Shown: positions 5,176 through 62,645 of the stretch, piece after piece | How the letters are laid out: each line of letters opens with the position of its first letter | Position numbering within the stretch: the stretch's first letter is position 1 | Origin: Pelagomonas calceolata | Lineage: Eukaryota; Sar; Pelagophyceae; Pelagomonadales; Pelagomonadaceae | DNA: 64,000 nt | Direction: 5' to 3' | Assembly (NCBI GenBank): GCA_918797485.1 | Contig: CAKKNE010000002.1 | Location: forward strand, 3,624,501 to 3,688,500 | Program-made: the position numbers and the translations under genes | The notes under the pieces: generated by a model | Database searches by the model: none | What the model was told of the DNA's origin: nothing | What the model saw: the letters and a program-made list of their open reading frames with translations, nothing else

Positions 5176-5891
5176 GGACGCCGGAGTTTGACGGTTGCTT
5201 GATAAGCGGCAAACGGCTACCAAAGCGACTACGACTGACAAAAATAACGACTCTACAAAAACATTTGGAACAAGTCGACTGGGTAGCCGGGCAGCCTGTA
5301 GGACATTCCAACGTCGATTGGAGTGGCGGATCCCAGGAGGGGAAATTGACTACACCAATCATGATGTACTAGTCACCCGGGCCGTAGTCACGGCGGGGAC
5401 TCCGAGTCCGACTCGGAGTCGCCAGGCTCCGGGCTAGCCGCAGTCATGGCCCGGGTAGGCTGAGTACATCATGAGTCTACTGACTTAAGTAAGGACGCAC
5501 TGGGCCACGGCCCACTGGCAGGCCGTGATTCAGAGTGTCCGAGTCTCAGTGCGATAAATAGGGTGAAATACCCCCCCTTATCCTATACCCTTCTATATAC
5601 ACTTACACACACACAACACGCCACGCGTAATTAAACACCGTCCGTAAACCAAACCACTTAGTGTATTTTAAGGTAGCTCTCCCCGCCGAGTCCCCGGCAG
5701 ACTATCTCAGCCGCCGTACTCCCAAAGGTGCGTACTCCTTTGGTCTTGCTTCATTCGCAGGTTATGGGCCCACAGTCCGAGTCCTAAGAGATACTTCGCC
5801 GTATTACCTTTTGAAATCCGACACATTGGCGAGTGACCACACTTCACTCGTTGGGAGAGAAAACCCAGCCCTTTGTTAGCATTTTAATAAA
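5176..5891. other. Intergenic spacer, divergent upstream region
   Basis: Spacer between the FN3 gene (leftward) and the next rightward ORF. It contains a short palindromic cluster of ACTCGGA/TCCGAGT words at 5398-5425 and CCACTGGCAG at 5511-5520, both recurring words of this genome's spacers. There is a CA-rich and TA-rich stretch at about 5580-5620. No gene recognised. Confidence 0.5.
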
Positions 5892-6338
5892 ATGAGCACA
5901 GACTCAAATGGGCCTGATCAGGCTCAGAGTCAATCTGAGTCAGGTGTTGAAGCTTCCGAGTCTGACTCGGAGCCAACCACTCTGAATCCGGACAACATAG
6001 TCCAAAGCATATTAAATGAATGTTGTGAAGGCAAACCACAGTTTCAAGACTATGTCTTGAACCCACTGGCAGGACGAGGCTTGGACTCGGATTGGTCCGA
6101 CTCGGACTCCGAGTCGGCGAGTCGAGATAAACCCCGTCGGCGTGTACCCGAACCGGCGGCCAGCCCTCAAAGACGCATCACGGGTTTGCTCTGCCCTAGT
6201 AACCCAGCTTCAAGTTCGAGTTCTCCCCGCGTCCAACCTCAATTTGAAGTAAAGGTAGTCATGGGTAGCCACGGACCCCCTCAGACTTCCAAAATCTACT
6301 CTTGCTGGGCTTTTTTTTTGAAGCTGTTGGACGTCTAA
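5892..6338 (+). CDS. Hypothetical Ser/Asp/Glu-rich protein, doubtful
   Basis: An uninterrupted 148-codon frame starting ATG at 5892. It has an acidic serine-rich N-terminus (SGVEASESDSEPT, later DSDWSDSDSESASRDKPRRRV) and no domain I recognise. The acidic stretches are encoded largely by copies of the spacer word GACTCGGAG, so this may be spacer DNA that happens to be open rather than a gene. The end (SCWAFFLKLLDV) falls on a T-run. It could also be the first exon of an unrecognised gene or an eroded transposase N-terminus. Confidence 0.25.
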   Translation: MSTDSNGPDQAQSQSESGVEASESDSEPTTLNPDNIVQSILNECCEGKPQFQDYVLNPLAGRGLDSDWSDSDSESASRDKPRRRVPEPAASPQRRITGLLCPSNPASSSSSPRVQPQFEVKVVMGSHGPPQTSKIYSCWAFFLKLLDV

Positions 6339-7713: not shown

Positions 7714-8972
7714 TGCAATAGATTAGTTTCAAGCTGTCATTTGGTGCCGCATCATCGGTTAATTCCACTATGCTCCCGTCCAGATCAAAAGTCAGAGAGT
7801 CATCGACGCACACATTCCGCGAAATAGTGCGAAATAGCGAGCTGCTGTTAAGAGCAAATTGGCGCTCTCATCCAGGTCTCGTGCCTAATGCAGTGGTCCA
7901 TAATTTTTTTTTGGTCGGCTGAATAGCGAATGGGGAGGCACTGCCCCGACGTGTTGCCCCAGGTTGGCAAGGTCTACCGACAAGCTCTAAAGTTGCTTCA
8001 TATTCGGCCTAAGGGCGGCGACTTCTAGTCGACTCTACCACAGATACAACTCGGACTTCTCTATAAACCCCTACGGATCTTGAATGAACTTCCTGGCGTT
8101 ATTGTGGGCCGCGCCAATGCCTGACTTTTTTTCTTCGTGTTCGTGTGATACAAGTGTACCGAGACATGCGCACACGAGTCATGCGCACACGAGTCATGGA
8201 GTCGTTTCGATGCCACCCCGCAACCCATCAACACGTTTACCATCGCTCAGTCGCTTTAGCCCACAGACTGGCGTTGCGACGTGCTTCGTCGCCGCTGCAC
8301 TGGCAAACTCTTCTTTTGTCCAAGTATGATCGAGAAAATTCCGGGCTCATACGAGCGCCCGGAAGCAAGGGACGGCCAAGTCATGCCGTTTTGTGGGCGC
8401 CCCTGCGAGATTATATAATCGCCTGACGTGCAGAGACCTTCATAGCTTGGCCTCTGACCTCGGCCCTCGTTCTGACCAAGAACCTTACCGACGCTGGAGG
8501 CAATTTCGCTAGCGTGTAATTCTATAACATCAGTGCCGTCGTACTTGAATCAGCAGCTTCCGAGTCAAGTTGGTCCTTGGGCCGGACCGATAGTATACGA
8601 CATACCCAAGGCGGTTCACGCGGATTAAGCACCTCGTTGATTCGTTGAACCCGGGGCCTGCTGAAGATGACCAGATCAAGACGCGTATTTGAATTGCGTC
8701 AACGAAGAAAGCCGTCACGGTCAACCTCAACTCGCACTCCCCCTCAACCTTGACATGAGCGCCGGGCCGGGCCGCCGGTTGCGCCAGCCGCCACCTACAA
8801 CTAGGGATCGACCTCTGGGCCCGATTAAGAGTCACCGGTCCACCTTTGAGGTGGGATGCATGGGTCTGAGGCTAGCAGGATGGACTAGTACGTATCATTG
8901 CAGATATATCTTTGAGGCAGTCGCGTTGTTTGTGAGCTATCTTCATCGCATCGTCCAGCGGGGTCTCGTGCG
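7714..8972. other. Intergenic spacer
   Basis: 1.26 kb between the ERK7-like and Sfi1-like genes, both rightward. The only structure seen is a short tandem duplication of GCGCACACGAGTCAT around 8168-8198. No convincing ORF or RNA gene. Confidence 0.5.
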
Positions 8973-10670: not shown

Positions 10671-13177
10671 GCAAGGCCCTCCTGGGAACTGCTTAAGGTC
10701 ACTGACAAGAAGACCGCAAGGACAGGAGCCAAAAAAGCACCATAATTCTTTGCACCGAGTGCGTGTAAATGAACCCCCCCTACGATGCCCGGCCTGCCTA
10801 GGAACCCCCAAACTAATCGACATTACTTCTAGTTCCCGCTACTGGCTCTGACTACTGGCATCACTGGCATTCTTAAAATTTACTAAACTTGAAGGTTTAG
10901 ATTGAACATGGGGGGGGACACCAGACTAGGATTGCTCCATAGCAAATATAACCGGAGCCCAGTGAGGTGAATTTTCTAAAACGAAGGTTAACTAGGTCGA
11001 TTCCCGTCCCCTAACAAAATTTGGGATGGGGTCGTCGGGATTTGGCGTTTTGGCAGACCGATGACTGCAAAAAATACCCGCACGATGTGATTCGGCTCGC
11101 TACTAAGCGGCCTTCATCGGCCCGAACGGCGTCCAGAGCCGCCACTAAGTCATCACCTTGCTTCAGCATCCTTGAAGGCCGTTGTAGCCGCCGCGCCGAG
11201 CGCATGCAGCTGCAGCCGGCACGCCGCTAAACCTACTAAACGGGTTTTTGACGATTTGGAGCTCTCCCTCTCATCGTCATCGACCTCCGTACAGACCCCT
11301 GACCTAGGGCGGGGCTACCGACCCCTCTCGGAGGCTCCATGCGAAAAAGCACGTAATTTCGGATCGATTAAGACTCGCTCAGGACCTGGCGACGGTCCCC
11401 GGCCCCCCCCTGATTGAACTTGAAGGTTCTCTTCTTCAAGTTGAACTCCCCCGGCGTAAACTCTCTAAACTGAGTACTAGTAGACCACGACTCCTCCCTG
11501 GGGGGGGGAACTCGACAGCCACAGCGCAAACAAAACAATCCTCAGGCTGTAGACAGGGTTTTTCCAAACTAAGGTTCCTTACGTATATAACCACCTTTTT
11601 GACAAGCCTGAGGGAGCCTGACTCGGAGGACTCCGAGGCAGAACGGTTAGGATCTGACTATTTTAGTGGACCGCGAACGTCGCCGGTGGCGTTTCGTGCC
11701 GCGTCGCGCCGGGCGATACTTTTAGCACGCCATCAAACTAGATGGTCGCATTTGCGCATCAGCCCCCGGGCAAAAGGTACTTAAGGGGGCTCGGGAGACA
11801 AAATCAATTAAAATCATCACTAGCCTATGTTCTTTTTTGGCAAAGGAACTGAAAGTGGTGGGGCGAAAACCTGAATGGCTGGCAAAAATATGGTTCTTGC
11901 CAGTGGCCGCCGCGGCGTCCCACCACCCCGAAAGTGACCCCACCCGAATAAAGCGGTGTCGGGGCGTCCTTGGAATAAAGCGGCTTTAGGATTGATTAAG
12001 TGAGATTTCGGCATCCAGCTTCCCCCCCCCCATCAGTGAACCCACCGTGACCACGTAAGGGCAGGGGGGGCTAGAGCGGCCGCAGTGGGTACTTATATAT
12101 AAAGTATGATTTTTTTACCGGGACTACAGGACGGGTGGAGAGGCCACTGAAGGAGACGTTTCCGAGTCGCGTGGAGGCTTCGATCTTCATAACAGCAATT
12201 TTTTAGCTAAAATTGCTGAACTTTTTTGCCGTGGTTCTCAGCAATTTTGCGCATGCGCGCAAAAGAAAAGATGCCGAGGGCCGCTTGGGTGCTCGCATGC
12301 CCACACGCACCGCGCATGGACGCCGCGGCCAAACGCAATATCGGACTCAAGCCCAACATGCGGGTATTTAGCCCCAGGAGGGTATTTGGCTACAGCCTGA
12401 GTACTTTAAAAAGTTTATTGTAGGCGCGCGCCCCCGCAACCCGAATTGACTATAGCTATTTTATATTATAAAAAGGGGGGGAGGGGGGGGAGGCAATGGT
12501 TTCATATCATGATCTTAATTTTTTTAACACCCTTTTTTTATATTTAGGGTCATGCGACCGCCAAGTTTTGTCATTGGGGCTTTTTTTAACGCCTGCTTCG
12601 AGTTAGGGGACGTCATGACCTGTGAGCGTAGCGAAAACAGCTCGTGACTAGCTCGTGACGACCTCTAAAATCTCGAAATGGTGCAAAAAATGCTACAACT
12701 ATATCATCATCACGGTCTAGGGGCGGCGGCCCGGGCCGGCACTGGCACCCACTCTCACGGTAGAGATTCCATCGAGCGCCCGAAGTTCGCGCAATCGTCC
12801 AGGGGAGCACGTGCACGCCCCTTGGGATAGGCGTCACTCCGCAAGGCCGGATGAAAAACGAGCTGGATTTTTTCCTAGGTACGCGTGGTGGCGCTGATGA
12901 ACAGGGACTTAGTTTGGCCATATTTCGATGTTTGGCTAGTCTACGGCCCATAAATGGTTTCGTCAGAAGGAACATGCGCTGCGATGTGGACTCGGATTTG
13001 ACCGTAAAATGCATCCTCGATGCGGATTGCGTCACGCCTAAGGACCAAAACCTGTGTCGGACTTTGATGTACTAGTGAAATCGCAATTCGAATTTGGATG
13101 TCGTTCCTGCTATCGTAATTGTCTGGGGCCTGCAATTATAGCATGCGATTAGCCAAGGAACATTAAGTGAAACGCTC
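10671..13177. other. Long gene-free spacer
   Basis: 2.5 kb with no plausible gene. It contains several spacer words (ACTTGAAG at about 10888 and 11418, GACTCGGAGGACTCCGAG at 11618-11636), a run of 7-9 G/C homopolymers, a perfect 8-bp stem hairpin at 12190-12211 (GCAATTTT...AAAATTGC), a near-palindrome rich in GCGC at 12247-12264, and a G-rich tract at 12475-12493 that could form a quadruplex. It separates two converging genes (Sfi1-like rightward, hydrolase-like leftward). Confidence 0.5.
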
Positions 13178-20150: not shown

Positions 20151-23100
20151 ATGAGCTCGCGCGAAGCAACGATCAGGTCGTTTAGGGCGAGATCGGTCAA
20201 GGTTGTGTGGGACGGGGCCGCGCCGCCGTCAGTCGAAGCGCTGCAGGCGGCCTTCGCGCCCTTCGGGGCCATCTCGACGGTCCGCGTGAAGCAGCGCACA
20301 GCGCTGGTGCTCTACCGGGACGCGCGGTCGGTGGCGTCGGCGGTCGATGGCACCCGCGGCCCCTGGATCGCGACCGCGGTCGCCACCGAGAGAGCGGATC
20401 CGCGGCGCGGGTCCCCCAGCGCGCCGTTTGGACAAGCGCCGGCCGCGGAGGCGTTCTCGGGCGCGCCGTTTGGACAAGCGCCGGCCGCGGAGGCGCCGGC
20501 GGGAGCAAGCGAGCCGCCGGCCGCAGAAACGTTCTCGGGCGGCGCGCCGTTTGGACAAGCGCCGGCCGCGGAGACGTTCTCGGGCGCGCCGTTTGGACAA
20601 GCGCCGGCCGCGGAGGCGCCGGCGGGAGCAAGCGAGCCGCCGGCCGCAGAAACGTTCTCGGGCGGCGCGCCGTTTGGACAAGCGCCGGCCGCGGAGACGT
20701 TCTCGGGCGCGCCGTTTGGACAAGCGCCGGCCGCGGAGGCGCCGGCGGGAGCAAGCGAGCCGCCGGCCGCAGAAACGTTCTCGGGCGGCGCGCCGTTTGG
20801 ACAAGCGCCGGCCGCGGCACGTTCGCCGGGCGCGCCGTTTGGACAAGCGCCGGCCGCGGAGGCGCCGGCGGGAGCAAGCGAGCCGCCGGCCGCAGAAACG
20901 TTCTCGGGCGGCGCGCCGTTTGGACAAGCGCCGGCCGCGGAGACGTTCTCGGGCGCGCCGTTTGGACAAGCGCCGGCCGCGGAGGCGCCGGCGGGAGCAA
21001 GCGAGCCGCCGGCCGCAGAAACGTTCTCGGGCGGCGCGCCGTTTGGACAAGCGCCCGGCCGCGGGCACGCCGGGCGCGCCGTTTGGACAAGCGCCGGCGC
21101 GGAGGCGCCGGCGGGAGCAAGCGAGCCGCCGGCCGCATAAAACGTTCTCGGGCGGCGCGCCGTTTGGACAAGCGCCCGGCCGCGGACGCCGGGCGCGCCC
21201 GTTTGGACAAGCGCCCGCCGCGGAGGCGCCGGCGGGAGCAAGCGAGCCGCCGGCCGCAGAAACGTTCTCGGGCGGCGCGCCGTTTGGACAAGCGCCGGCC
21301 GCGGGAGACGTTCTCGGGCGCGCCGTTTGGACAAGCGCCCGGCCGCGGAGGCGCCGGCGGGAGCAAGCGAGCCGCCGGCCGCAGAAACGTTCTCGGGCGG
21401 CGCGCCGTTTGGACAAGCGCCGGCCGCGGCACGTTCTCGGGCGCGCCGTTTGGACAAGCGCCCGGCCGCGGAGGCGCCGGGCGGGAGCAAGCGAGCCGCC
21501 GGCCGCAGAAACGTTCTCGGGCGGCGCGCCGTTTGGACAAGCGCCGGCCGCGGAGACGTTCTCGGCGCGCCGTTTGGACAAGCGCCGGCCGGGCACGCTC
21601 GGGCGCGCCCGTTTGGACAAGCGCCCGGCCGCGGAGGCGCCCGGCGGGAGCAAGCGAGCCGCCGGCCGCAGAAACGTTCTCGGGCGGCGCGCCGTTTGGA
21701 CAAGCGCCGGCCGCGGAGACGTTCTCGGGCGCGCCGTTTGGACAAGCGCCGGCCGCGGAGGCGCCGGCGGGAGCAAGCGAGCCGCCGGCCGCAGAAACGT
21801 TCTCGGGCGGCGCGCCGTTTGGACAAGCGCCCGGCCGCGGAGACGCGTTCTCGGGCGCGCCCGTTTGGACAAGCGCCGGCCGCGGAGGCGCCGGGGGAGC
21901 AAGCGAGCCGCCGGCCGCAGAAACGTTCTCGGGCGGCGCGCCGTTTGGACAAGCGCCGGCCGCGGCGGGGACGTTCTCGGGCGCGCCGTTTGGACAAGCG
22001 CCGGCCGCGGAGGCGCCGGCGGGAGCAAGCGAGCCGCCGGCCGCAGAAACGTTCTCGGGCGGCGCGCCGTTTGGACAAGCGCCCGGCCGCGGAGGCGTTC
22101 GGGCGCGCCCGTTTGGACAAGCGGCCGGCCGCGGAGGCGCCGGCGGGAGCAAGCGAGCCGCCGGCCGCAGAAACGTTCTCGGGCGGCGCGCCGTTTGGAC
22201 AAGCGCCGGCCGCGGAGACGTTCTCGGGCGCGCCGTTTGGACAAGCGCCGGCCGCGGAGGCGCCGGCGGGAGCAAGCGAGCCGCCGGCCGCAGAAACGTT
22301 CTCGGGCGGCGCGCCGTTTGGACAAGCGCCGGCCGCGGAGACGTTCTCGGGCGCGCCGTTTGGACAAGCGCCGGCCGCGGAGGCGCCGGGCGGGAGCAAG
22401 CGAGCCGCCCGGCCGCAGAAACGTTCTCGGGCGGCGCGCCGTTTGGACAAGCGCCGGCCGCGGAGACGTTCTCGGGCGCGCCCGTTTGGACAAGCGCCGG
22501 CCGCGGAGGCGCCGGGCGGGAGCAAGCGAGCCGCCGGCCGCAGAAACGTTCTCGGGCGGCGCGCCCGTTTGGACAAGCGCCCGGCCGCGGAGACGTTCTC
22601 GGGCGCGCCCGTTTGGACAAGCGCCGGCCGCGGAGGCGCCGGCGGGAGCAAGCGAGCCGCCCGGCCGCAGAAACGTTCTCGGGCGGCGCGCCGTTTGGAC
22701 AAGCGCCGGCCGCGGATACGTTTCGGGCGCGCCGTTTGGACAAGCGCCGGCCGCGGAGGCGCCGGGCGGGAGCAAGCGAGCCGCCCGGCCGCAGAAACGT
22801 TCTCGGGCGGCGCGCCGTTTGGACAAGCGCCGGCCGGGCACGCGCCGGGCGCGCCGTTTGGACAAGCGCCCGGCCGCGGAGGCGCCGGCGGGAGCAAGCG
22901 AGCCGCCGGCCGCAGAAACGTTCTCGGGCGGCGCGCCGTTTGGACAAGCGCCGGCCGCGGGCACGTTCCGGGCGCGCCGTTTGGACAAGCGCCCGGCCGC
23001 GGAGGCGCCGGCGGGAGCAAGCGAGCCGCCGGCCGCAGAAACGTTCTCGGGCGGCGCGCCGTTTGGACAAGCGCCGGCCGCGGAGACGTTCTCGGGCGCG

Positions 23101-24884
23101 CCGTTTGGACAAGCGCCGGCCGCGGAGGCGCCGGCGGGAGCAAGCGAGCCGCCGGCCGCAGAAACGTTCTCGGGCGGCGCGCCGTTTGGACAAGCGCCGG
23201 CCGCGGAGGCGCCGGCGGGAGCAAGCGAGCCGCCGGCCGCAGAAACGTTCTCGGGCGGCGCGCCGTTTGGACAAGCGCCGGCCCGCGGCACGCCGGGCGC
23301 GCGTTTGGACAAGCGCCCGGCCGCGGAGGCGCCGGCGGGAGCAAGCGAGCCGCCGGCCGCAGAAACGTTCTCGGGCGGCGCGCCGTTTGGACAAGCGCCG
23401 GCCGCGGGCACGTTCTCGGGGCGCGCCGTTTGGACAAGCGCCCGGCCGCGGAGGCGCCGGCGGGAGCAAGCGAGCCGCCGGCCGCAGAAACGTTCTCGGG
23501 CGGCGCGCCGTTTGGACAAGCGCCGGCCGCGGAGACGTTCTCGGGCGCGCCGTTTGGACAAGCGCCGGCCGCGGAGGCGCCGGCGGGAGCAAGCGAGCCG
23601 CCGGCCGCAGAAACGTTCTCGGGCGGCGCGCCGTTTGGACAAGCGCCGGCCGCGGAGACGTTCTCGGGCGCGCCGTTTGGACAAGCGCCGGCCGCGGAGG
23701 CGCCGGCGGGAGCAAGCGAGCCGCCGGCCGCAGAAACGTTCTCGGGCGGCGCGCCGTTTGGACAAGCGCCGGCCGCGGAGACGTTCTCGGGCGCGCCGTT
23801 TGGACAAGCGCCGGCCGCGGAGGCGCTGGCGGGAGCGGGGGAGCCTCGGCCGCATCGCAGCCCCAGAGCCTCGCCGCGCGCCGCGTGCGTAGCGCTTGGT
23901 TTCGGTGGGCGCTTCGCCCGCGGCGGCGGCGGCGCGGCCCCTGGCGTTTTGCGACTCGGACGATTGTGCGACCTTGGCGGCGAGGAGGTCGTCCTCTTCG
24001 GCGTTGCACGCGCGTCGCCGGCGGCACTCGCGGCTGCGCTCCGCCGCACCGAGGTCCTGGCCACCGCGCGGTGCGGCCCGGGCGGCGACGACGGCGGGGT
24101 CGCCGGGCGCCTCCGCGTCGCGCACGTGGCGCTCCTCTGCGACGCAGGGCAATCCGACGCCGCCCTAAGCCGCTGCGCCGCTACGTGCACCGCCGCAGCG
24201 CCGCGCGGCCCTGCCCGCACGGCGCTCGCCGCTGCTGTCGCCCTCGAGGACCGCGTGCGACGGAGTCGCGACGGCAGCCCCATTCCGCGCGCTGCACTTG
24301 CGGCCGCCGCGGCGCCGTCGTCCTTCGATCAGCTCGGGTCGCGGGCTGGCGGCCGCCTCAACGCGCTGACCGCCGCGGAGGCCGCGCCTGCGCCCGCCCC
24401 CGTCGCGCGACCGCCGCCGCCGGCTGCGCCCGCCGTGTTGTGCCCTGCGCGGACTGACGCCATCGACGCCAAGCCTGGGTGGTTCCGACGCAAGCTTTCC
24501 GCCGTCCTCTACCCAGACGCGACGCGCGTCGACCTCGCCGAAGCGTCTGCACCTGCGGCCTACTACGACAAAGCCTGCGGTCGATGGATCCTTCCTGACA
24601 CCGATGGAAAGGACGGGCACTCAACTGCTGCCCCCCCGCTGCGCGCCCCGCCGCCGTCGGCGTCGATGCGCCCCCCGGGGCTTGCGCCCGCGGGTCAATC
24701 TAGCCCCCCGCTGCCCTCGCCGCGGCGCGCGGCCTCGACGTCTGCCATGGCCGCCGATCCGCTCGCCGCCATGATGGCGCCACCGCCAATGCGCGCCGTG
24801 CCACGTGCCCAACGCGTCGGAGATGCCATGACAATCCGTGCGCCACAATCACAATCGACACCTTCCTTCGCAACCTTTGCATAA
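20151..24884 (+). CDS. RRM-like / PFG-repeat / Sec16-like C-terminus protein, frame disrupted
   Basis: Starts ATG at 20151. Residues about 15-70 form an RRM-like fold (VKVVWDGAAPPSVEALQAAF, then FGAISTVRVKQRTALVLY). A long array of 41-residue units follows (GAPFGQAPAAEAPAGASEPP plus AAETFSG), then a unique region from 23830. There GFGGRF and the C-terminal motif KPGWFRRKLSAVLYPD followed by AYYDKACGRWILPDTD resemble the end of Sec16, the ER exit site scaffold (family: GWF..., then YYD...RWV). The PFG motifs also resemble nucleoporin FG repeats, so a nucleoporin is the main alternative. As given, the frame breaks: a TAA at 21138-21140 and many 1-nt C insertions inside the array shift the frame, yet the start and end are in the same frame. 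Either the assembly has errors in this repeat or the gene is decaying. Extremely GC-rich. Confidence 0.55.
20429..23825 (+). repeat. Tandem array of about 27 units of ~123 bp
   Basis: Each unit contains two copies of CGCCGTTTGGACAAGCGCC, one GCGGGAGCAAGCGAGCCGCC and one GCAGAAACGTTCTCGGGCGG block. Unit length of 123 bp is 41 codons. First and last units are nearly perfect; units from about 21050 to 23450 show scattered CC/CCC and GG/GGG length changes. The unit has no stop in any of the six frames, which is why long frames appear on both strands. Confidence 0.95.
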
Positions 24885-27241: not shown

Positions 27242-28027
27242 CCCTACGACCGTACCGACCCCGGGCATTCAGCCCGCCGTACACAACGCTCTCGACGTCT
27301 CGGCCAGGCCTCCACGCGTACCACCGGTCCAATCTGAGCAAACTAAGGCCGCGGTGCGCCTCTTATGGTCCCATACGACCTTATTGTGACGCTTTGCCGT
27401 TTTAGGAAAAACGCCGAGTTCAGCGTCCGCGTTCTATGCGCAGCCCGCATCAAATTCCAAGCGGGTTTGCCTCCGTGTAGTCTATGGGGTGTTGGGCCGG
27501 CGCACCGCCGCTGCCTCCGCATCTAGTCCGGTGTGGCGCACACACAGTGTCTAAAAATGGGCTGCCACGCCATCTAAGCGTTTTTAGGGGACGGAGCACT
27601 AGAATCAGTCCGCAACGCCGGGTTGCGATCGACCAATCCCCACGAAAAGCTGAGGGGCGCTTTTGTGCCCCCCTGGGGCCAGCCTGAGGAGAGTCACGGT
27701 CCCCAGACGGAGTATCCCTGTACAAGCTCCCCCGGAAGCAACTTGAACCGGCTAAAACCGGCGACCCCCCCCATACAAACTACAACAAACTACCTCAACC
27801 TCTTCAAGTTCACCCGGGCCTGGTGTGCCAGTGACAGTGCCAGTGGGCCGACTCGGAGCGGCTGGTTTTTAGTTTCGGAGGAAACTTGAGGAGGTACTTC
27901 TTTTCAACCTTCGATAGGGCTGTGTTTCTTAAAATACTATTACTTGGCGTGGCAATATTACTGAACCCTGATAATGGTAGCTCTGTATTTTGTTACCCCC
28001 CCTTGCTGCGGTGATCATCTCCTCGGC
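27242..28027. other. Intergenic spacer
   Basis: 0.8 kb between the GUN4 upstream repeat and eRF1. It contains spacer words (CAACTTGAACCGG at 27747, GTGCCAGTGACAGTGCCAGT at 27825-27844, CCGACTCGGAGCGG at 27848). Nothing coding recognised. Confidence 0.45.
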
Positions 28028-33269: not shown

Positions 33270-33879
33270 GGATTGTCCCCTGAGAGGCAGGATGTCCTTT
33301 GTTTGACTACCCTGATGGTGACCTTGGTATTTGCTTAGTACCCGTATTGACTTATAGCAAGTAGCCAATTCTCAGAACTTGAAAATGCCAGTGAAAATAA
33401 TCAGCCGTGCTTGACAAGACACAAAGGATCGAAAAGATGCTTTGAGAAAATGATGGAACGTGTCGCCTGGAACTCGGACTCGGACTCGGGAGTCTGTGCT
33501 TAGTCCGTCATGATACCATCCAAGTCAATAAGACCATCAACTGAATCATGAACAACCTCTCAGAAACAAATAAAGCAGAACGAGCTAGGGGAGATGGATG
33601 CGATGCGGGATCTACTTCACGCCCCTCGTTTGCATCAAGATCTACCCGCACCCAACATGGGGTCGACGACATATGTCATGCGAGTAATAAACAAATAAAC
33701 AAACTTGAACTAAGGGAAGACCTAAAACAAAGCTTATTAAAAGGAACACGGGCAAGCTCGCTCCTAATTAGTGGCACCGTCACGGTGACTGGCAGGGTAT
33801 AGTTCAATAAGTTAGTAAGCCTTTCCAGCGAAATTCCTCCGCATTAGAAAGAAGGACTCACGGTAGTATAGATGCCTCA

Positions 33880-34170
33880 GGCTCGGGGCCGGCCGGCCGG
33901 ACAGGACTCGGATAGAGGGTCCTTTTCGGAGCACTGGCACTGCCAGTGGCAGTTCTAAGTGTGGCAGTCTTCAAAAGTTCGCCAGTGCCCGGTGGGCCCG
34001 GGCCCAGGCCACTGGCAGTCACTGAGTCACGGTGTGTAAGCTCAGGCTCACGCCGACTCGGAGCCTTCCCACAGCACAGCACTCAGGCTTCAAGTCACGG
34101 TTGGGCGGCCCCGGCCCGGGCGGCGGCTCCGAGTCATGCCAGCCTGGGTGGTCACTGGCCCGGGCACTCA
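33880..34170. repeat. Cluster of short spacer words
   Basis: Within 290 bp there are copies of CTCAGGCT (at least four), ACTGGCA or GCCAGTG (at least six), GACTCGGA or TCCGAGTC (three) and CTTCAAGT/CTTCAAAAG (two), many abutting each other, for example GCACTGGCACTGCCAGTGGC at 33931-33950. Confidence 0.8.
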
Positions 34171-34709
34171 GGCTCAGGCTGACATTGGGGGCGCGGCGGT
34201 TGGGGCTAAGCGTGAGATATTTGACCCCTTCGTCGTGCTCTCCGTCCTCGATTTGTTCTTTCTTCGTAGGTAATGTACCGTAGGTACCGTATTCACTAGA
34301 CCTACTTTATCCAGGAATTCAAGGTATACGCACATATCATAGCAGGACTGCGGTATAGGTGATTTTTCTTTTCTAGGCATTCACTGTAAAACACTGGCAC
34401 TCCCGGGCCGAGTCTACGTCAATAGGCGGAACCTTGTGGGCCCATAACCTAGCAAGAGTATGTCGCAGCATTATTTAAGGTAGCAGGGTCCTAGCTCACC
34501 AGCCAACTTGAAAGGCTGCCAGTGGCCCGGGGCCAGTGGCAACTTGAACCCGGCCCGGGCGGGCCTAACCGTGACTACGAGACTCGGAGTGTTTTATAGC
34601 AAATTGTGTTTACACCGTAGTGTCAATAAATACTCGATGTATAGACTCAAATTTAGAGAGTGGGAGATACATATCCAGGGTAGGAAGGGCTAGTAGGTTT
34701 CTCTCTCTA

Positions 34710-34795
34710 TAGGTAGGTACTTACGGTACCGTACCGTACCGTAGGTAGGTACCGTAGGTACCTACAGGTAGGTCCTACCTACGGTACGGTAGGCG
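34710..34795. repeat. GGTACC/ACGGTA palindromic array
   Basis: A run built from GGTA, TACC and ACGGTACC units in both orientations (for example GGTACCGTACCGTACCGTAG). Almost fully self-complementary, so it could form cruciforms or slipped structures. Confidence 0.75.
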
Positions 34796-36789: not shown

Positions 36790-38587
36790 CAACAACACCC
36801 CAAACAAGAAAGCCTCACTCGTTGTCCATCCACCAACGACTCATTATGTAACCTACCCGCGGCCAGTCAGGTAGGAATACTAGCAGCACCATTATCTTGA
36901 GATAGGCGCAGATAAGTCCCGCAAAATTCATGCAGGCACAACACGAGCGCTATGAACAGTTTCCAAGTCCCCTTGTCTTCAATGACAACCACATAATGGT
37001 CCAATTCATTCAATGCTTGCCCCTGCCGATTGTCTTAACTGCACCTGCGGCTTCATTTGCATGTCAAACGCAATTGCTGTAGCGCGAGTCCATAGGAGCG
37101 GGCTTGAGTGCTCTGGCCTCCGCAGTCAGAATGCCGCGCGGTTACTTTGAGCTGGGCCAGGGCATGCAGTCACATGGTGTGTTCTCCGAGCGTAAATGAC
37201 GAGCCCAGTAGGACAAACCCCAGTTGGAGTTCTTGGCAAGTGCGATTGACGGGAAGGTAACCCGCTCTAGATACCTCCACTCTTATATTCGCACACCCAA
37301 ATCGGGACCGCACACCGCGCAACAACAATGGCCAACCAGATGATAAAATAGCTGCCATCAAAGTTGCCAGTGACTTAAACTTAAACTTGAATAACTTATG
37401 CCAGTCACGGGCCCGGGCATAATTTTGAAATAAATTTGTGTGGATTAATACACTGGATTAATCATGATTGAAGTGGACCACCCCAATAAATGTCACGGTA
37501 ACACCGCGACCCCTCCAAGACCCACTGTGTTTTACCTTATTTTTTATTTTTTTTTCAATTTCGCATGCTAACTTGAAGCTGGCAGACTTCAAGTTACTGG
37601 CACAGTGACTACTAGTATTAGTATGGTGATGATGATGATGATGATACTGTTGTTAGGGGACTGTTAGGGGAGACTAGTGGAGGTACCGTCCCCTAGGCCG
37701 GAACTTGAAGTCGGTTAATTCGTTGGAGTAACATTCTTCCTTACCTTCTCTTAGCTCTAATTAGAATGAATTAGCCTGCGACGCTTAAGGCTCCTTGGAG
37801 ACTTCGAAATTTATAGGGGGGTCGGGCGCAATAGTCGACGTTGGCAGGTTTTGGCGCAATGAGCGTACAGCCACACGCCGGCCGAATGGCGGCAAACTTT
37901 TGCTGAGGCGCAGCTTCCGTATGCTAAAATAATGGGTTGCGTGCAAAGTTTGGTGCATGCGGGCAGCCTCGCGCTGAAAAATCAGCTGCGACGCGGTGAT
38001 GGTCCGAGATAAAACCCGCCCGAAAAACAATCTCTCCAATGGACGGGATAAACCGGCCTCGAATGATCCACTAATTATTTCCTATCGTTCCATATCTATA
38101 TAGGGCTGCTAGGGAATATCCTGCTTCCGGCCCTGCTTAGAGGTACCGTGCGTCGCAATGAGTTTGCACCGCAGGAATCTTGACAGAAAGCGTCAAGGTG
38201 GGCCCCACTAGAAGTCCTGGCAGCTAATTCCCGCTGGTTCAAAACTAATCTGGCCCGGGCAGTTTGGTAAATTTGGCGACACTCTCTGAGGATACACTCT
38301 CGGCGCTTTGCGCGCTAAATACGCGGCGGGAGCGCACATTAGGCGCCTGCGCGGCCCGCAGCAAGCTGTACCGGCATGGGGCAGCTGTACCAGCAAATGA
38401 CGGCCCGGGACTGCGTTTATCTTACCGCTGCGCATTCGCACGTGGCTCGCCGGTTGACACGTAGGACGTCATACGCCCATCTCCATGTGGAACGAGCCGT
38501 AGGCCCAAACACATTCTCGGCCGAGATTGTCATCAACTCACCCACGGTCAACATCGCGGCGTCACAAGGTCAGGCATGTTTGTGTAA
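36790..38587. other. Intergenic spacer with dispersed repeat B
   Basis: 1.8 kb between converging genes. Contains ACTTGAAG/ACTGGCA words at 37360-37400 and 37570-37610, a (GAT)n stretch at about 37626-37644, and dispersed repeat B copy 1 at 37688-38129. No gene recognised. Confidence 0.5.
37688..38129 (+). repeat. Dispersed repeat B, copy 1
   Basis: Almost identical to 50562-50930 (same orientation) over long blocks, such as GTCGGTTAATTCGTTGGAGT and GGCTCCTTGGAGACTTCGAA. This copy has a 6-nt ACTTGA insertion near 37702 and about 80 extra bases near 37922-38010. It lacks a GCCTGAG and a 13-nt segment that copy 2 has. No open frame is conserved. Confidence 0.9.
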
Positions 38588-43863: not shown

Positions 43864-44626
43864 TTCTCGCGGTATGTACAGTAAGTATCTCGTGAAACAG
43901 GGATACCACGGCCGTGACTATGAAACTAATACGCAGTAATACTCCTACTCGCCCCAGGCGCGCGCCTTGATAGTAGCCGCGGCCCGCGCGGCAAGAGTGA
44001 GGAAGGACACACTCCCCGCGGTCGGCGTCGCGGGCCCTAAGTCCCTTCCACTGGCCGCACGGCGCGTCGGCGCGTCGTTCCAACATCCGCTGGAATGCAC
44101 ACGTACGTCATACCGGTCGAATTTTGTCGATAGATGCCGAAGCGGCCCGCGATCGACATTCACCGAATATGCTCTCGCGACCGGCCGTGGGTTGACATGT
44201 GGCGACGGATAGCTGGTGGACTTCTGGAGGTGCACCGCTGTTTGCGTTGGTCAGGTGCTTCTCTACATTCGCATACGTATAACGATGAAATTAATTGATA
44301 TAGAATATATGATGATGTGCTTACGGATTTACCCAAACCTGAAACTCGCGTGGTACGCCGCGGCGGCCCTTTTCGAGAAGAAGAAGGAGGGAGGTCCGTG
44401 CGACCACCTTACTCTGTCCTAGCCCGACGGATGGGTCCCGGAGGAGCGGGAGCGACTAGGGGGTCGCGCGCCGTGTAAAACCCGAACCCGAACCCAGATG
44501 GCTCTCACGGAACCGACCCAATAATTGCCGGCATCCGGCAAACTCGAGTGCACAGTTGGGCCAGCGTAAAATGACCGCATCCTGTCGTACTTTGGCGCGT
44601 AGGCGTAAAAACTTTTAACTGCCAGA
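43864..44626. other. Intergenic spacer
   Basis: Divergent upstream region of the kelch and acyltransferase genes. Contains a copy of a diverged dispersed repeat at 44095-44235 (see 41405-41520). No gene recognised. Confidence 0.45.
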
Positions 44627-46613: not shown

Positions 46614-46836
46614 CCTGCTGAGACGCTATCGACACTCAAGTTCGCCATGCGCGCCAAGCGCGTGACCAATGTACCGCGCCTCAACGAGGACCTTGACCAG
46701 GCATCACTACTGCGCAAGTATGAGCGAGAGCTTAGACGCCTCAGTGCCAAGCTCGAAGAGCGAAATCGCAATGTAGTCGATCAACGGTGTCTACTCGAGC
46801 TCGAAGAGCGCCGCCGTCGCGCCGAGAAGAACAAGC
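46614..46836 (+). pseudogene. Inverted fragment of the neighbouring kinesin gene
   Basis: Encodes LKFAMRAKRVTNVPRLNEDL and about 45 further residues, nearly identical to the kinesin neck region at about 48215-48000 on the opposite strand. Differences are few (for example RRLSAKLEERN here, RRLRAELEERN in the gene). The copy starts within the end of the motor domain and stops abruptly at 46836, so it is a partial duplication in inverted orientation, 270 bp beyond the 3' end of the parent. It cannot make a kinesin, but transcripts from it would be antisense to the parent mRNA. Confidence 0.85.
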
Positions 46837-47107
46837 ATGGAGGACGCAGGCGCCCACATCTCGTCGCTTGGCGATCTTCGCCCTCCGGCCGTCCCAGGCC
46901 TCACAAGGGCGACAGGAAGAAGTGGAATCAAAAGAGAAAAATAACACCGAGAGACGGTTTTAAGACGTATACATGAGGAACCGCGAGTATTTATTTGACC
47001 AATACCATATTGGACTCGGGAGAGAAATATATGCCGTCCGTAAATTCATTCATTTTTACATCATTACCTCCTAGGATTATTTCGTGATTGTAGGATTCCG
47101 CCTGATC

Positions 47108-49396
47108 TCAAAGATTCCTTTCTGAGGTGGCAAGGCGCCTCCCAAGCTCGCCTTGGCCGGCCTGTTTCAGCGCTTCGACAGACGCACGGATGAGGCGCCG
47201 CAGTGCGCCAAGATCTTTGAGTGCAAAGGCACGTGCAGCACCGGGCGCTACGTTTTGACGGTCGAGATTTGAGGCGACGCTGTCGACCAGGACCGCAATT
47301 TTCTTTTCGAAGATGGTCTGGACAGCATGGCGCTCCTTGTCGCGAAGCTCAAGTAGGGTCAAGAGCTCGGCGACGCGTTTGTCTGCGCTTGTACCACCGG
47401 CCGCAGCACCACCGACCGCAGCGGCCGCGGCAGGAGCACAATCAAGGGGTCGCATTAGCTTTGCATTATCTGCGCGGCGCACAGTGACGTCATGTCGAGC
47501 TGCGTCTGCCTCGTGAAGTGCCGCCCGCGCTCCACCCTCGAGCTCAAGGCGCTGAATTTGGATGCACTGGGTGGTCTTCTCATCAAGCTTGTTTTCGAGC
47601 GCAGCCTGGTTCCGATCATACGCTTCAAGCTCATCCTGGAGTGCCATGATCTGCTCATCGCGCTCATTGAGCCGCTGAGTTAGCGCGATCATGATATCGC
47701 GCTGCTTGAGCAGTAACTGCTTGTAGCGCTCGACCTGAGCCTTCTCGTGCTCAATACGCTCACGCTCACGCTCGAGATCGGCCAGCCGCGCGTCGTACTC
47801 TGCCGCTGTGTGACGTGCAGGCGACACCTTAGCGTCGTCGATGCCGCCTACCCTGCCACCGACCATCCCGTTCCCCCCGACATCAGTCGAGATCATCTGC
47901 GACGTAAGTTTTAAAATACGCTCCTCGAGACGCGTCTTATCCTCCTTTTCGCGCATGAACTCACGCGAGCGTACTTCGAGCGCGCGAATCGCCGCACGCT
48001 TGTCCTCCTCGGCGCGACGGCGGCGCTCTTCGAGCTCGAGTAGACACCGTTGATCGACTACATTGCGATTTCGCTCTTCGAGCTCGGCGCGGAGGCGTCT
48101 AAGCTCTCGCTCATACTTGCGCAGTAGTGATGCCTGGTCAAGGTCCTCGTTGAGGCGCGGTACATTGGTCACGCGCTTGGCGCGCATGGCGAACTTGAGT
48201 GTCGATAGCGTCTCAGCAATCGACTCAGCTGCTGGCGAGATGGTCGCCAACATGGTTGTGCGACAATTGCCGCCAAGTGAGTCCTCCAGGAGCCGTGTGA
48301 GCTTAGAGTCGCGGTAGGGGACGTGCTTGCGTGTAGTACCGCTTGTCTGCCGCGTAGCAAGGGCGGCTATTACATTTCCGAGGGCTGACAATGACGCATT
48401 GATCTTCTTCGATTCTTCGAGTCGCTGGCCAGTAGCGCCTGAGACACCGACACGCTCGGAACCAGCGAGGTCGACAAGATTAAGCTTCCCCACGCGAAAT
48501 GTTTGCTTGACTCGGTTTTCCAGGCGCGCGAGTGCTTCGGCCCGCTTGAGGCCGGCCGATCGCATTTCACGGGCAAAATCGTCTGGCGCCAACTCACGTC
48601 CGTCCTCACCCACATAGACAGTCTCCGAATGCTCGACGATAACGACAAAAACTGCGTGTGACCGCGACGAGAAGTCATTCATCCTCGTGGCGCCAGTTGC
48701 GCGAGATCGCGAAGCGCGGTCCATTAGCGCGTAGACCTCCGAGGGCTGGCGAACAACCCACTCAGAGAGACCGTCGACGTACACGCCGCGCTTGGGATCC
48801 TCACGGATTGCGAGCGCTTCAAGCGGCGATGCTACCGCACTGGTTCCCTCAGGTGCTATGCCGTTGCGTGGGGGCGCCAAAAGATCCGAAACGATCTCCT
48901 GGTAGATCTGGATGCAAGACGCACGCGCGAGGAAGCGCACGTTTTTCTGTGCGTGTCCTGCAACGTGACGGAAGATCTGTTCGACCGACCGTGGGATGAT
49001 GCCACGTGCAACCGGATCACGGGCCTCAGAGCCGTCCATTGTGTAAGTTTTTCCAGTGCCTGTCTGACCATACGCAAACATCGTGGCATTATAGCCCTGA
49101 AGGCAGCTCTCTACAACCGGCTGTGCGGTTGTTTCGTAGACTTCCGCTTGTGTGCTGCCAGCATCGTACGCATCGTCAAACGCGAACGTGTGCACCGCCA
49201 CGCTGCGCTGGCGATTGATTGTCGGCACATCGTTGTCCACGTCGCTAATTGTCACCGTCTGCAGCCGCTTATCCACGCGCGCTACACTCCCCGACGACTC
49301 GTGCGCGAGTAGCGGCCGTACACGGACGACTACCTTGACCGCATCGTCATGCCCCCTGGGGGAGCGCGCCGCCGACGATCGGTCTAACTCATCCAT
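47108..49396 (-). CDS. N-terminal motor kinesin
   Basis: 762 aa, one exon, ATG at 49396. The motor domain occupies about residues 15-415: VKVVVRVRPLL, P-loop AYGQTGTGKTYTMDG, switch I NDFSSRSHAVF, switch II LVDLAGSERVG, and KHVPYRDSKLTRLLEDSLGG. The neck sequence KFAMRAKRVTNVPRLNED follows, then coiled coil to about residue 640, including YKQLLLKQRDIMIALTQRLN and a stretch with DEQIMALQDELEAYDR. A motor at the N-terminus implies plus-end-directed movement along microtubules. The coiled coil resembles a kinesin group common in protists rather than animal kinesin-1; the exact subfamily is not certain. A linker of about 50 residues inside the motor (between switch I and switch II, EHSETVYVGEDGRELAPDD...) is longer than usual. 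GC-rich with no introns. The neck region is duplicated in inverted orientation just downstream. Confidence 0.9.
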   Translation of the reverse strand: MDELDRSSAARSPRGHDDAVKVVVRVRPLLAHESSGSVARVDKRLQTVTISDVDNDVPTINRQRSVAVHTFAFDDAYDAGSTQAEVYETTAQPVVESCLQGYNATMFAYGQTGTGKTYTMDGSEARDPVARGIIPRSVEQIFRHVAGHAQKNVRFLARASCIQIYQEIVSDLLAPPRNGIAPEGTSAVASPLEALAIREDPKRGVYVDGLSEWVVRQPSEVYALMDRASRSRATGATRMNDFSSRSHAVFVVIVEHSETVYVGEDGRELAPDDFAREMRSAGLKRAEALARLENRVKQTFRVGKLNLVDLAGSERVGVSGATGQRLEESKKINASLSALGNVIAALATRQTSGTTRKHVPYRDSKLTRLLEDSLGGNCRTTMLATISPAAESIAETLSTLKFAMRAKRVTNVPRLNEDLDQASLLRKYERELRRLRAELEERNRNVVDQRCLLELEERRRRAEEDKRAAIRALEVRSREFMREKEDKTRLEERILKLTSQMISTDVGGNGMVGGRVGGIDDAKVSPARHTAAEYDARLADLERERERIEHEKAQVERYKQLLLKQRDIMIALTQRLNERDEQIMALQDELEAYDRNQAALENKLDEKTTQCIQIQRLELEGGARAALHEADAARHDVTVRRADNAKLMRPLDCAPAAAAAVGGAAAGGTSADKRVAELLTLLELRDKERHAVQTIFEKKIAVLVDSVASNLDRQNVAPGAARAFALKDLGALRRLIRASVEALKQAGQGELGRRLATSERNL

Positions 49397-51276
49397 TATC
49401 GACTGAATTGGCCCGCCGGCGCCCGCGGCGCCCGGGCGACGACGACGGGTTTTTAGCCCCCACCCCGCACGAAACGCGCGCGCGCGGCCGCGCGGCGAAG
49501 AGTATGGCGGCCTTGTCCGCCCCCAGGGAGCGTCAGCGGAGGCTTAACGCGCCGTATGCAGGGAGCCCCTCGCCACTCCAGCGCTTGGTAGTGTGCCTAC
49601 AGGAGGCGAGTGCACCTGCGGCTCCGTTGCCCTTCATTGCGCCGATTCCCCGCCAACCGACGATTTGGTCACGGAGGCGCCTGTCCACCATGACCCGAGG
49701 GCAAGCCCACGATGTAACGGACTCACTAGACATCGGTCGACGGGGGCTTGAGCCCGAGTGGTCGCGCCGAGGAAGAGCGACGACTCTATATCAACCACGC
49801 CACACGGCCGTGAACATCGAACCATAGTGTACTACGGCCGAGGAACACCAGGCACCGCCTCGATATTGAAATCAGTGACATGGCGTCGAACGCCGGGTCC
49901 TTGGCAGTCCCTTTTTCATTATAGGTAGAATTGATTTGAGCACCTCGCCCGTGCTGCCCGGTGGTCGCGTGCCGAAGTTTGTGTTTCAAATTTGGCGGTT
50001 CTGGTGCTGTGGCCCAGGAGCGCCAATTTAGGCAGCGTTTTTTGCGCGCGGCGCGTGCCGTAGTGTGTATAGAGGCTGCTGGCAGTGTGCGGTGTGTGTG
50101 GAAATTTAGTAACCGTGTATCTGGAAATTTAGTTAGGCCCGCGAAGTTACCGCGTCAGGCGATCTATTCGGCAGCCCATGAGGTACCCCGGCCGCGCGTG
50201 CGCATCCGCCCCACGCCGCGAGTACCCGAAGCCCTAGGTTCCCGGCAAGAAGCGGTTCTGAAATACCTGCTACGTAACCGCGGACTCCCCATCCTGGTCT
50301 GGAAGCGCAAAAAGTGACCGCAGCCTCTTGAAGAGCCCAACTGGGAATTTGAACCCTAATATCAGGGGACCGGACCGGGCCCCCGTAGTCTCCCTTCCTG
50401 ATCACTATGTTTAACTGTTCATTCAGACTAGTGCCTTTTTTCAAATTCTGTTGGCGAGAAGGGGCAAGGGGATATATCCAAACAAACATTTTAACAGCCT
50501 AAGAACGAACGAACGAACAAACAAAAAGAGGCTTAGGAGCTTACCGTGCCAGTGACTACTCCCCCTAGCCGGAAGTCGGTTAATTCGTTGGAGTAACATT
50601 CTTCCTTACCTTCTCTTAGCTCTAATTAGAATGAATTAGCCTGCGACGCTTAAGGCTCCTTGGAGACTTCGAAATTTATAGGGGGGTCGAGCGCAATAGT
50701 CGACGTTGGCAGCCTGAGGTTTTGGCGCAATTGAGCGTACAGCCACGCGGCGCCGACCGAATGGCGGCAAATTTTTGCTGAGGCGCAGGTTCCGTATGAA
50801 ACCCGCCCGAAACCCAATCGCTCCAACGGACGGGATAAATCGGCCTCTAATTCCCCACTAATTATTTCCTATCGTTCCATTATTAACTTCCATATCTATA
50901 TAGGGCTGCTAGGGAATATCCGACTTCCGAGGCTGGCTGCTTATTAAGTAAGTGACTACTAGTAGAATACCTCTGAGTCCGAGTCCGAGTTTCTTCTTCG
51001 GCGCCCATAATAAATACCCCGGGGGGTAGAGGCCGGACTTCGGACAGACTCGGGCCGGCGTGGACTTGATGCGTATCTGCCCGCGTGGGGCCGGCACTAG
51101 AGGCGGGCTGGCAATTAGTTTGCCTCAGTGAAAGTGATAGGAGATCGCTTTGCCTCTGCGAATGCGTGCACCGTGCGTAGGTGCTCGCATGAAAACTAGT
51201 GCGACTTGATTGACGGAACTAAAGTTCTTCTTCTTGCCCGCGCCCGTCGACAGCACCGTTACCCACGAGCCGGAGC
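49397..51276. other. Intergenic spacer with dispersed repeat B
   Basis: 1.9 kb. Contains dispersed repeat B copy 2 (50562-50930), a (GAAC)n stretch at about 50503-50525 and CTGAGTCCGAGTCCGAGT at 50972-50989. No gene or convincing tRNA seen. Confidence 0.5.
50562..50930 (+). repeat. Dispersed repeat B, copy 2
   Basis: Second copy of 37688-38129. Compared with copy 1 it lacks ACTTGA after CCGGA, has an extra GCCTGAG between GTTGGCA and GTTTTGGCGC, lacks an internal segment of about 80 nt and has 13 extra bases before the shared CATATCTATATAGGGCTGCT. Confidence 0.9.
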
Positions 51277-61808: not shown

Positions 61809-62645
61809 ATAGCCCGAACGTCGCAACTTACTACGAAAGGGCCTTAGGGGGTGCCTCACATTCTGGCGGAGTGTGGGGCCCTGAAAATGCGAGGGGCCGG
61901 AAGGGCCCCCACGCGAACGTCGCGCCAGTCTAGGTTGGCACTTACCATATCCCGTCGGCGGGATATGTTATACGGCACTTACCCGAGGGGTTATTAACCC
62001 CAATCGTGGCCCGGGGTCAGTAACCCGGGTAATTACCCGTTAGTACGGGTTATTAACCCCGCCGGGATCTTATAGTACTAGACTTTCTTATAGAGGGGGA
62101 GGGGGAGGGGGCCTCACGGGCCACTGGCGCGGGCCTGGGCCGCGCCGGGCCACATGACTTGGTACTTGCCTTGGCGCACCTGTACGTACCCAAAAGCTCA
62201 ACGGGCTGCTTGCGCCCATCCGCTCGCCCGGAGGGGTCTTTCGCTAATCTCACTAAACGGGTTTAGTCGAAAACCTGTCGGGTTATTGAGCGGGTTATTG
62301 TCCCGGATCCCCTCCGAGGGGTAATTATAGGTTAATAACGGGTAATTAACAGGTAAGTGCCAACCTAGGCGCCAGTGGCGTTTCGCGTCGTGTTTGCGCA
62401 TCCTCAGGCTACCGACGCCACCGTGACGGGTACCAAGGGGGACTTCGAGGGGGAAATCACCAGCATAGAAGCGAGTTTTGATTTTCACCCCTGAAAACCC
62501 GCGAGTTGAGCTAAATACCCTCACGTTAGGTCATTTTGGGCACCTCACCCCATCTCGAGGGGGGCCCCTCCGTGGCAAGCTAGTGTCGCCGTGTGCTTAG
62601 GATGCCCCTGGGACCAAACGGGCCAAGTTGCGACGTTCGGGCTAT
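61809..62645. mobile_element. 837-bp non-coding element with terminal inverted repeats
   Basis: Perfect 21-bp terminal inverted repeats: 61809-61829 begins ATAGCCCGAACGTCGC, and 62625-62645 is its reverse complement. A second inner pair is also inverted: GTCTAGGTTGGCACTTACC at 61928-61946 and GGTAAGTGCCAACCTAGGC at 62352-62370. The middle is rich in GGTTATTAAC/GGGTAATTA words. There is no transposase frame, so it is non-autonomous. A clear target site duplication was not seen (flanks TTAA and TCAA are close). Confidence 0.8.

Follow-up and report, generated by a model that had tools for sequence, protein, structure and literature searches.

The locus

Pelagomonas calceolata is among the most abundant eukaryotes in the ocean. 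The window analysed here, a stretch of 64,000 bp, covers positions 3,624,501-3,688,500 of contig 2. Its spacers (25,682 bp) were separated from the remaining 38,318 bp, mostly predicted coding sequence, by a self-trained codon model and some open reading frames added by hand, and the split is approximate. The reading frame at 47108-49396 codes for a kinesin motor with KIF3B and KIF3C as best PDB matches, and the frames at 16007-16747 and 17616-18842 gave a dynein-stalk match and an ODAD1 coiled-coil match; together with the kinesin, these are flagellar-type genes in one window. An inverted duplication of 224 bp, 97% identical (46616-46839 and 47995-48218), has one of its arms inside the kinesin reading frame.

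The assembly of P. calceolata RCC100 is described as consisting of six nuclear contigs with a total of 32.4 Mb, a 90-kb plastid contig and a 39-kb mitochondrial contig (PMC9481584). According to the text of the genome paper, each nuclear contig has one low-GC region of about 259 kb, these regions are in Hi-C contact with each other and were taken for centromeres, and the authors saw no build-up of repeats in them (PMC9481584). In the window, 18 of 32 stretches of 2 kb have a GC content of 46-55%, as compared with 61-71% in 16 background loci of 10 kb, and we therefore infer that it lies in the low-GC trough of contig 2. Such troughs are probably centromeric DNA. Inside this low-GC region, a GC-rich tandem array (20419-23854, up to 77% GC) comprises about 28 copies of a 123-bp unit that is open in several frames.

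One rule behind the spacer words

A preliminary description of the window had pointed to five short words that recur in its spacers. All five are indeed over-represented there relative to 200 dinucleotide shuffles: ACTCGGA occurs 31 times against a mean of 2.6 (maximum 8), ACTGGCA 27 times against 3.0 (maximum 8), ACTTGAAG 11 times against 0.6 (maximum 4), CTCAGGC 16 times against 3.4 (maximum 9) and GGGCCCGG 7 times against 2.1 (maximum 6). In the remaining 38,318 bp the corresponding counts, with 50 shuffles, were 10 against 3.8 (maximum 10), 9 against 4.5 (maximum 9), 1 against 0.9 (maximum 3), 10 against 5.9 (maximum 12) and 4 against 3.2 (maximum 8). In the spacers of the 16 background loci (39.1 kb) all five words stayed inside the shuffled range, so that they are not a feature of spacers in general. 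Words read backward gave 12 and 21 occurrences in the window spacers for two of the five, but they are a poor control for these two, because CGGACTC and GGCCCGGG belong to the rule words described below.

The five words were taken at first for the members of a small fixed vocabulary, a reading that we had to give up: they are fragments of 8-mers, and these 8-mers are cases of a single rule that is enriched for 15 of the 16 dinucleotides. Any dinucleotide xy is found extended to xy-C-rc(xy)-G-xy, where rc denotes the reverse complement, as in GACTCGGA, CACTGGCA and AACTTGAA. When the 8-mers of the window spacers are ranked against shuffled sequence, such words stand at or near the top beside poly-C, with 26 occurrences of GACTCGGA against 0.71 expected, 20 of CACTGGCA against 0.82, 17 of AACTTGAA against 0.74, 16 of AGCCTGAG against 0.82, 21 of CCCGGGCC against 2.04 and 11 of ACCGTGAC against 0.55; TACTAGTA (5 against 0.17) and ATCATGAT (4 against 0.24), which are rule words too, follow lower in the ranking. 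The two constant bases are specific, as the C...G form occurs 124 times in the window spacers against 7.4 in shuffles, whereas the 15 other choices of central bases give 5 to 30 occurrences against 5 to 8.

For a broader count, the window spacers were combined with one 10-kb locus on each of the remaining five chromosomes (L025-L029) to a low-GC set of 75.7 kb, which contains 240 rule words against 18.6 in dinucleotide shuffles. The enrichment is clear for every dinucleotide except CG (2 against 1.6). As to the length of the arm, one base showed no enrichment (294 against 310), two bases gave 240 against 21.8 and arms of three bases were very scarce (5 against 1.3), and the period is continued into the flanks only slightly (at best in 83 of 235 words, with about 59 expected by chance). 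From both results it follows that the unit is eight bases long and that what is conserved is a relation between bases and not the bases themselves. Forms that obey the rule in part are enriched only 1.0- to 2.4-fold in the same set, which decayed copies could explain, and forms with the direct repeat only (xyNxy) or lone 5-bp palindromes show no real enrichment (0.9- to 1.14-fold). Versions with a net gain of 5 bp, as predicted from other hairpin nicks, are scarcely enriched either (91 against 79 and 99 against 85.6), and xyCGxy was counted 235 times against 208.

The use of dinucleotides in the rule words roughly tracks dinucleotide frequency, with the self-complementary ones being low (CG 2 seen and 14.7 expected, GC 8 and 17.5, AT 9 and 14.3, TA 10 and 12.0). 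CG and GC were omitted from the core counts that underlie the locus-by-locus, spacing and nesting analyses. Isolated words show a slight bias towards a C before (45 of 131) and a G after them (45 of 131). The words are also clustered, with 110 pairs whose starts lie 9-20 bp apart against 23 expected under uniform placement within segments, and 16 pairs start exactly 6 bp apart.

Rule words in the window

All 13 places that the preliminary description had named contain at least one rule word even when CG and GC are omitted, and its further observation that the words recur in both orientations, mainly in spacers, holds as well. That they would be rare in genes is true in so far as they are much rarer outside the window spacers, but they are not wholly at chance there, as the C...G form occurs 66 times in the non-spacer part against 27.8 and, without CG and GC, 24 times against about 10.4. 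Likewise, the words often abut one another as had been noted, while the palindromes seen at such places are the outcome of neighbouring and nested insertions.

The densest cluster (33876..34180), which is the part of the window that the preliminary description had singled out, holds 17 words in 305 bp with starts at 33876-34173, some of them overlapping or nested, which are built in this order on CT, GA, CA, TG, GG, CC, CA, GT, CT, GA, CT, GT, GG, TC, GG, CT and CT. It is followed at 34392..34588 by nine words (starts 34392-34581; CA, CC, AA, TG, GG, AA, GG, AC, GA). A short array of the GTACC/GTAGG type at 34710-34795 adjoins this region, and its pattern differs from the rule. Among the fourteen words at 5358..6115 are inverse pairs that abut, for example TCCGAGTC-c-GACTCGGA; this stretch may be partly coding, and there Ser/Asp/Glu codons can also yield GACTCGGA. 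The spacer at 10862..12996 has 17 words (CA, AA, AA, TT, TA, CT, AG, GA, TG, AC, TC, AG, AT, GG, CC, CA, GA), the cluster at 27681..27857 eight (AG, GT, AA, TT, CC, TG, TG, GA) and that at 37365..37709 nine (TG, AA, GG, AT, GT, AA, TT, TA, AA), of which the AA word at 37702 falls in the left end of a repeat copy at about 37.70-38.13 kb.

Distribution along the chromosomes

Without CG and GC, the window contains 145 rule words, 120 of them in spacers, against 11.0 expected. The five 10-kb loci L025-L029 from the other chromosomes (48-51% GC) contain 13, 19, 14, 29 and 35 such words against 1.3-2.6 expected, and 14, 20, 16, 29 and 37 of the complete C...G form against 2.5-3.0 in shuffles. In L025 the lead of this form is moderate (14 against 2.5, beside 10 against 2.2 for G...G and 10 against 2.5 for G...T), and L029 has 36 C...C forms against 2.5, 16 of which are GCC-repeat 8-mers. 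These five loci had been placed at pattern matches for CA, GA or AA words, but the eight dinucleotides that played no part in this choice (AC, AG, AT, CC, CT, GG, GT, TA) still gave 54 words against about 5.8. L002 and L030-L033 were also chosen for matches. L005 and L008, which are contained in L027 and L028, were omitted before the counts, as were L001, L003, L004, L006 and L007 from the low-GC set. The 16 background loci (L009-L024), on the other hand, had been fixed beforehand at round coordinates, and their 53 rule words without CG and GC against a summed expectation of about 41 are near chance. Their spacers have 31 words of the C...G form against 18.3 (14 against about 8.8 without CG and GC), and their coding parts 290 against 129 (36 against about 35). 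In these background spacers the highest ranks are taken by 8-mers whose overlaps build up GTAAGACACTAGCAAG and by words similar to CATCGACGCG; at a guess, these are probably introner elements and another motif.

A genome-wide search for CACTGGCACTGG placed 17 of 27 matches in one stretch per chromosome, at about 2.80-2.85 Mb on C1, 3.61 Mb on C2, 3.22-3.36 Mb on C3, 1.55-1.79 Mb on C4, 1.43-1.79 Mb on C5 and 1.62-1.88 Mb on C6, with two matches at 4.83 Mb on C3 and eight elsewhere. As the total of 27 is lower than that of the backward control (41), the clustering alone is informative here. Facing pairs of CA- and GA-type words within 30 bp were found at least 95 times against 18 for the backward control. 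TACTAGTA has 643 matches against 341 backward, and among the matches listed on C1, 36 lie before 2.70 Mb (six of them in one microsatellite) and 15 between 2.70 and 2.86 Mb. The occurrences of TACTAGTA in L032 form a microsatellite and are no scars. A poor marker is GACTCGGACTCG, with 176 matches against 131 backward and a wide spread among those listed; its background perhaps comes from runs of Ser/Asp codons.

The rule words thus lie mainly in the low-GC region of each of the six chromosomes, and at least two clusters are found elsewhere. L031 (C2:164501-168500, 67% GC) has 25 words in 4 kb, four of which form one tandem run of the TC word, and L030 (C3:4825001-4830000), outside the main low-GC regions, has 16 words in 5 kb; the counts for L030-L033 are raw word counts without a shuffled expectation. 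One of these two clusters sits between GC-rich genes. Both clusters, at 0.165 Mb on C2 and 4.83 Mb on C3, count against a purely centromeric reading.

The words as six-base insertions

What the words are became apparent from diverged copies of repeats in the low-GC regions, for which the GC-rich array at 20-25 kb of the window was omitted. The alignments contain 16 rows with 6-bp indels that reduce to 12 distinct events, and ten of these agree with the rule in full, one (ACCGTGGC) deviates from it by a single base and one is unrelated. One of the ten, in L027, was missed by the position filter of the script, and its TCCGAGTC was read from the alignment row. In the fitting cases one copy has the bare xy and the other copy the 8-mer. 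Among background repeat copies, none of six 6-bp indels fits, a small control in which four of the six come from one locus.

In the window, the repeat copy at 37707-37923 has a bare AG at 37846..37847 (+ strand), whereas its 93%-identical copy at 50572-50798 is 6 bp longer there and carries AGCCTGAG at 50711..50718 (+). The word TCCGAGTC at 12161..12168 (+) is bare in a related copy in L029, and CTCAGGCT at 62403..62410 (+) and ACCGTGAC at 62420..62427 (+) are both bare in a related copy in L025. Conversely, a bare AC at 44411..44412 (+; coordinate counted from the alignment) corresponds to ACCGTGAC in a related copy in L027.

The direction of the change can be read from a family with three copies, one each in L027, L028 and L029. 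It has five 6-bp insertions, one of which differs from the rule by a base, and none of them is shared between copies, which makes the gain the derived state. Besides these five insertions, the family has 27 single-copy substitutions, some of which stem from misaligned inserts; one TACTAGTA shows a difference of three instead of six bases, and a 5-bp insertion looks like a rule word lacking one base. Among the repeats in these loci are a dispersed one of about 300 bp whose ends, TGCRATG...CATYGCA, are imperfect (L027:8233-8542, L028:9597-9904 and L029:7499-7821) and whose L027 copy possibly has a flanking 5-bp duplication TAAGG, and a MITE-like element at L029:4550-5003 that has long inverted ends (agtatagggaaaatg...). 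A partial second copy of the latter lies at 8000-8255, and rule words occur in both.

A second line of evidence is provided by nesting. Removal of the insert exposes an older word that had been cut in two in 24 of 314 cases, whereas 200 swaps of right flanks between words gave a mean of 1.6 (maximum 5) and a shifted removal a mean of 2.7 (maximum 7). In the window, for example, taking the 6-bp insert out of TCCGAGTC at 8559..8566 (+) restores an older, interrupted TTCAAGTT, and doing the same with TGCCAGTG at 50547..50554 (+) restores an interrupted ACCGTGAC. Judged from these copies and nested words, each word is shown to be what we read as the scar of one 6-bp insertion that converts xy to xy-C-rc(xy)-G-xy, and the insertions are, on the same comparisons, separate events at arbitrary dinucleotides. 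An introner element was rejected as a candidate, as the insert is 6 bp long; introner-like introns are given as about 210 bp (PMC9481584).

Origin of the insertions

The six-base insertions are most likely the scars of a mobile element or of another break-making process that cuts the chromosome. The reading that we prefer, with a probability of about one half, is that they would be the excision footprints left by a DNA element of the cut-and-paste type, or by an enzyme with the same way of cutting, that acts mainly in the low-GC, probably centromeric regions. Such an element would insert with a 2-bp target duplication (xy...xy), and at excision one terminal base per end, a C on the left and a G on the right, would stay with the flank. 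Each flank would then be closed into a hairpin, xy-C-rc(xy), whose tip is the C. A nick two bases past the tip would open these hairpins to 3' overhangs that end in rc(xy) on one side and in xy on the other, and after annealing and filling-in the same 8-mer would always result. The single product would follow from the target duplication, because it makes the overhangs complementary. Clusters of words would arise by repeated local events and nesting.

The observed parts of the scar are the net gain of six bases, the duplicated target dinucleotide, the inverted copy between and the constant C and G. Where a related copy is bare and has xy once, the filled copy has a short net insertion bordered by xy on both sides. 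A 2-bp duplication with palindromic bases agrees with the rule, which we count in favor of the excision footprint, but this model does not predict the under-use of self-complementary dinucleotides. Known transposon footprints vary; here the product is nearly invariant and neighbouring lengths are hardly enriched, so that the range of footprints that is usual, though not defining, for one transposon is absent. The scar works like an excision footprint, and we do not claim membership in this class as proven, since one product dominates and the searches described below gave no parent.

The footprints of hAT elements are variable, whereas the scars described here have a constant C and G and one dominant product. 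The likeness to Ac/Ds, a hAT element, lies in inverted copies of flank bases at the junction, since Ac/Ds footprints are described as palindromic flank sequence that points to hairpins at the break (PMC4561436); hAT duplications, however, are given as about 8 bp (PMC3706591) and the scars here have 2 bp. The P nucleotides at V(D)J coding joints are short palindromic additions from hairpins that are nicked off-centre. The additions described here are likewise short and palindromic and, in the proposed model, derived from hairpins, but there are no immune loci, only one fixed product is formed and it has accumulated in germ-line spacers. Mariner/Stowaway elements duplicate TA, while here TA is just one of 15 dinucleotides and the target determines the middle two bases; what both have in common is a 2-bp duplication that is kept with short pieces of the element end (PMC4561436). 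We know of no CACTA/CMC footprint of this form. There are CACTA/CMC elements with 5'-CAC and GTG-3' ends and a 2-bp duplication (ENS1_Cis, CMC-NA_1, CMC-NA_2), whose duplication and terminal C and G would supply every constant part of the scar (PMC6004678), but no such element was found in the rows examined here, and the Transposase_21 search was one without a positive control.

The words match no element known to us, in line with the preliminary description, and no description of the rule was found in the literature searched or in the genome paper, its supplement excepted (PMC9481584). In about 126 kb, C...G-ended inverted repeats with a 2-bp duplication gave nothing recurrent but GC-rich ends, and CAC...GTG-ended copies with a 2-bp duplication no recurrent candidate, in both cases among the top eight of each locus and the 15 most frequent ends. 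None of the long inverted repeats in the window and L025-L029 fits as a parent, and neither do the larger inserts between repeat copies, of about 88 bp (about 37.92-38.01 kb) and about 390 bp net (about 61.92-62.39 kb). A hAT domain search had one weak match at C4:4.50 Mb, far from the troughs. The DDE_Tnp_4, DDE_Tnp_1_7, MULE, Transposase_21, KDZ and Plavaka domains had no match in the genome, with controls that matched in only two of the seven domain searches; Transposase_21 had none in the control genome either.

The main rival to the excision footprint is a cut made by a host enzyme without any element. Enzymes of the Spo11 or topoisomerase VI type leave overhangs of 2 nt, and the scars could be the signature of repeated breaks in the low-GC regions if the filled-in 3' end gained one untemplated C and were sealed as a hairpin onto its own strand, whereupon the opened ends would join as in the footprint model. 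Such an enzyme would account for the lack of a visible parent element, for nearly any dinucleotide being able to serve and for the concentration in regions that were taken for centromeres (PMC9481584). However, untemplated addition is then the only source of the constant C at both 3' ends, and dense clusters also exist outside the troughs, as in L031 with 67% GC and 25 words in 4 kb; we regard this explanation as unlikely, though well short of negligible. To our knowledge, there is no precedent for a polymerase-like or reverse-transcriptase-like enzyme that writes the six bases directly, copying the cut dinucleotide both ways around an added C and G, so that the insertion is the end product. 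The nearly invariant product and the hardly enriched other lengths would suit it, but a template step with a one-base turn is required, and we find it improbable. There is a real chance that a new kind of insertion process and not an excision footprint is at work. In its boldest form, which we put forward tentatively and at clearly less than even odds, a deterministic DNA-writing process that is tied to no mobile element would add six bases at arbitrary dinucleotides inside the putative centromeres, about once per five base substitutions in the one datable family.

Tandem pairs do exist, as seen from the 16 pairs exactly 6 bp apart and the run of four TC words in L031, and hexanucleotide microsatellites such as (GACTCG)n that grow by slippage could be behind them, but there is little continuation of the period into the flanks, the sites of insertion are bare dinucleotides within non-repetitive sequence, and slippage leaves 15 dinucleotides under one rule unexplained; a microsatellite origin was rejected on the flank and bare-site evidence and is very improbable. 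The location in spacers and low-GC regions would be in keeping with sites bound by a protein of centromeres or promoters, or with regulatory words under selection, yet 6-bp insertions differ between repeat copies, and as no base of xy is fixed and only the relation between positions is, the words would be invisible to a protein that reads sequence. This reading was rejected for the lack of fixed bases in xy, and we give it hardly any credence. The slightest chance of all is that of an artefact of assembly or polishing: the assembly is Nanopore-based (PMC9481584), but six added bases that depend on the local dinucleotide and lie mainly in particular regions are not what a polisher would produce, and older insertions are interrupted by newer ones.

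Significance

The rule is an exact and countable signature of a DNA-cutting process, and the nesting of its scars gives a relative dating. Judging from the five insertions beside 27 substitutions in one family, much of the change in the low-GC regions stems from this process. A specific repair mechanism, in which a hairpin is opened two bases from its tip and the ends anneal over 2 bp, becomes testable, and a one-line search for the rule can be applied to any genome. If it is true that the rule marks centromeres, it would be a sequence tag for such DNA in an alga where the authors of the genome paper saw no build-up of repeats in these regions.
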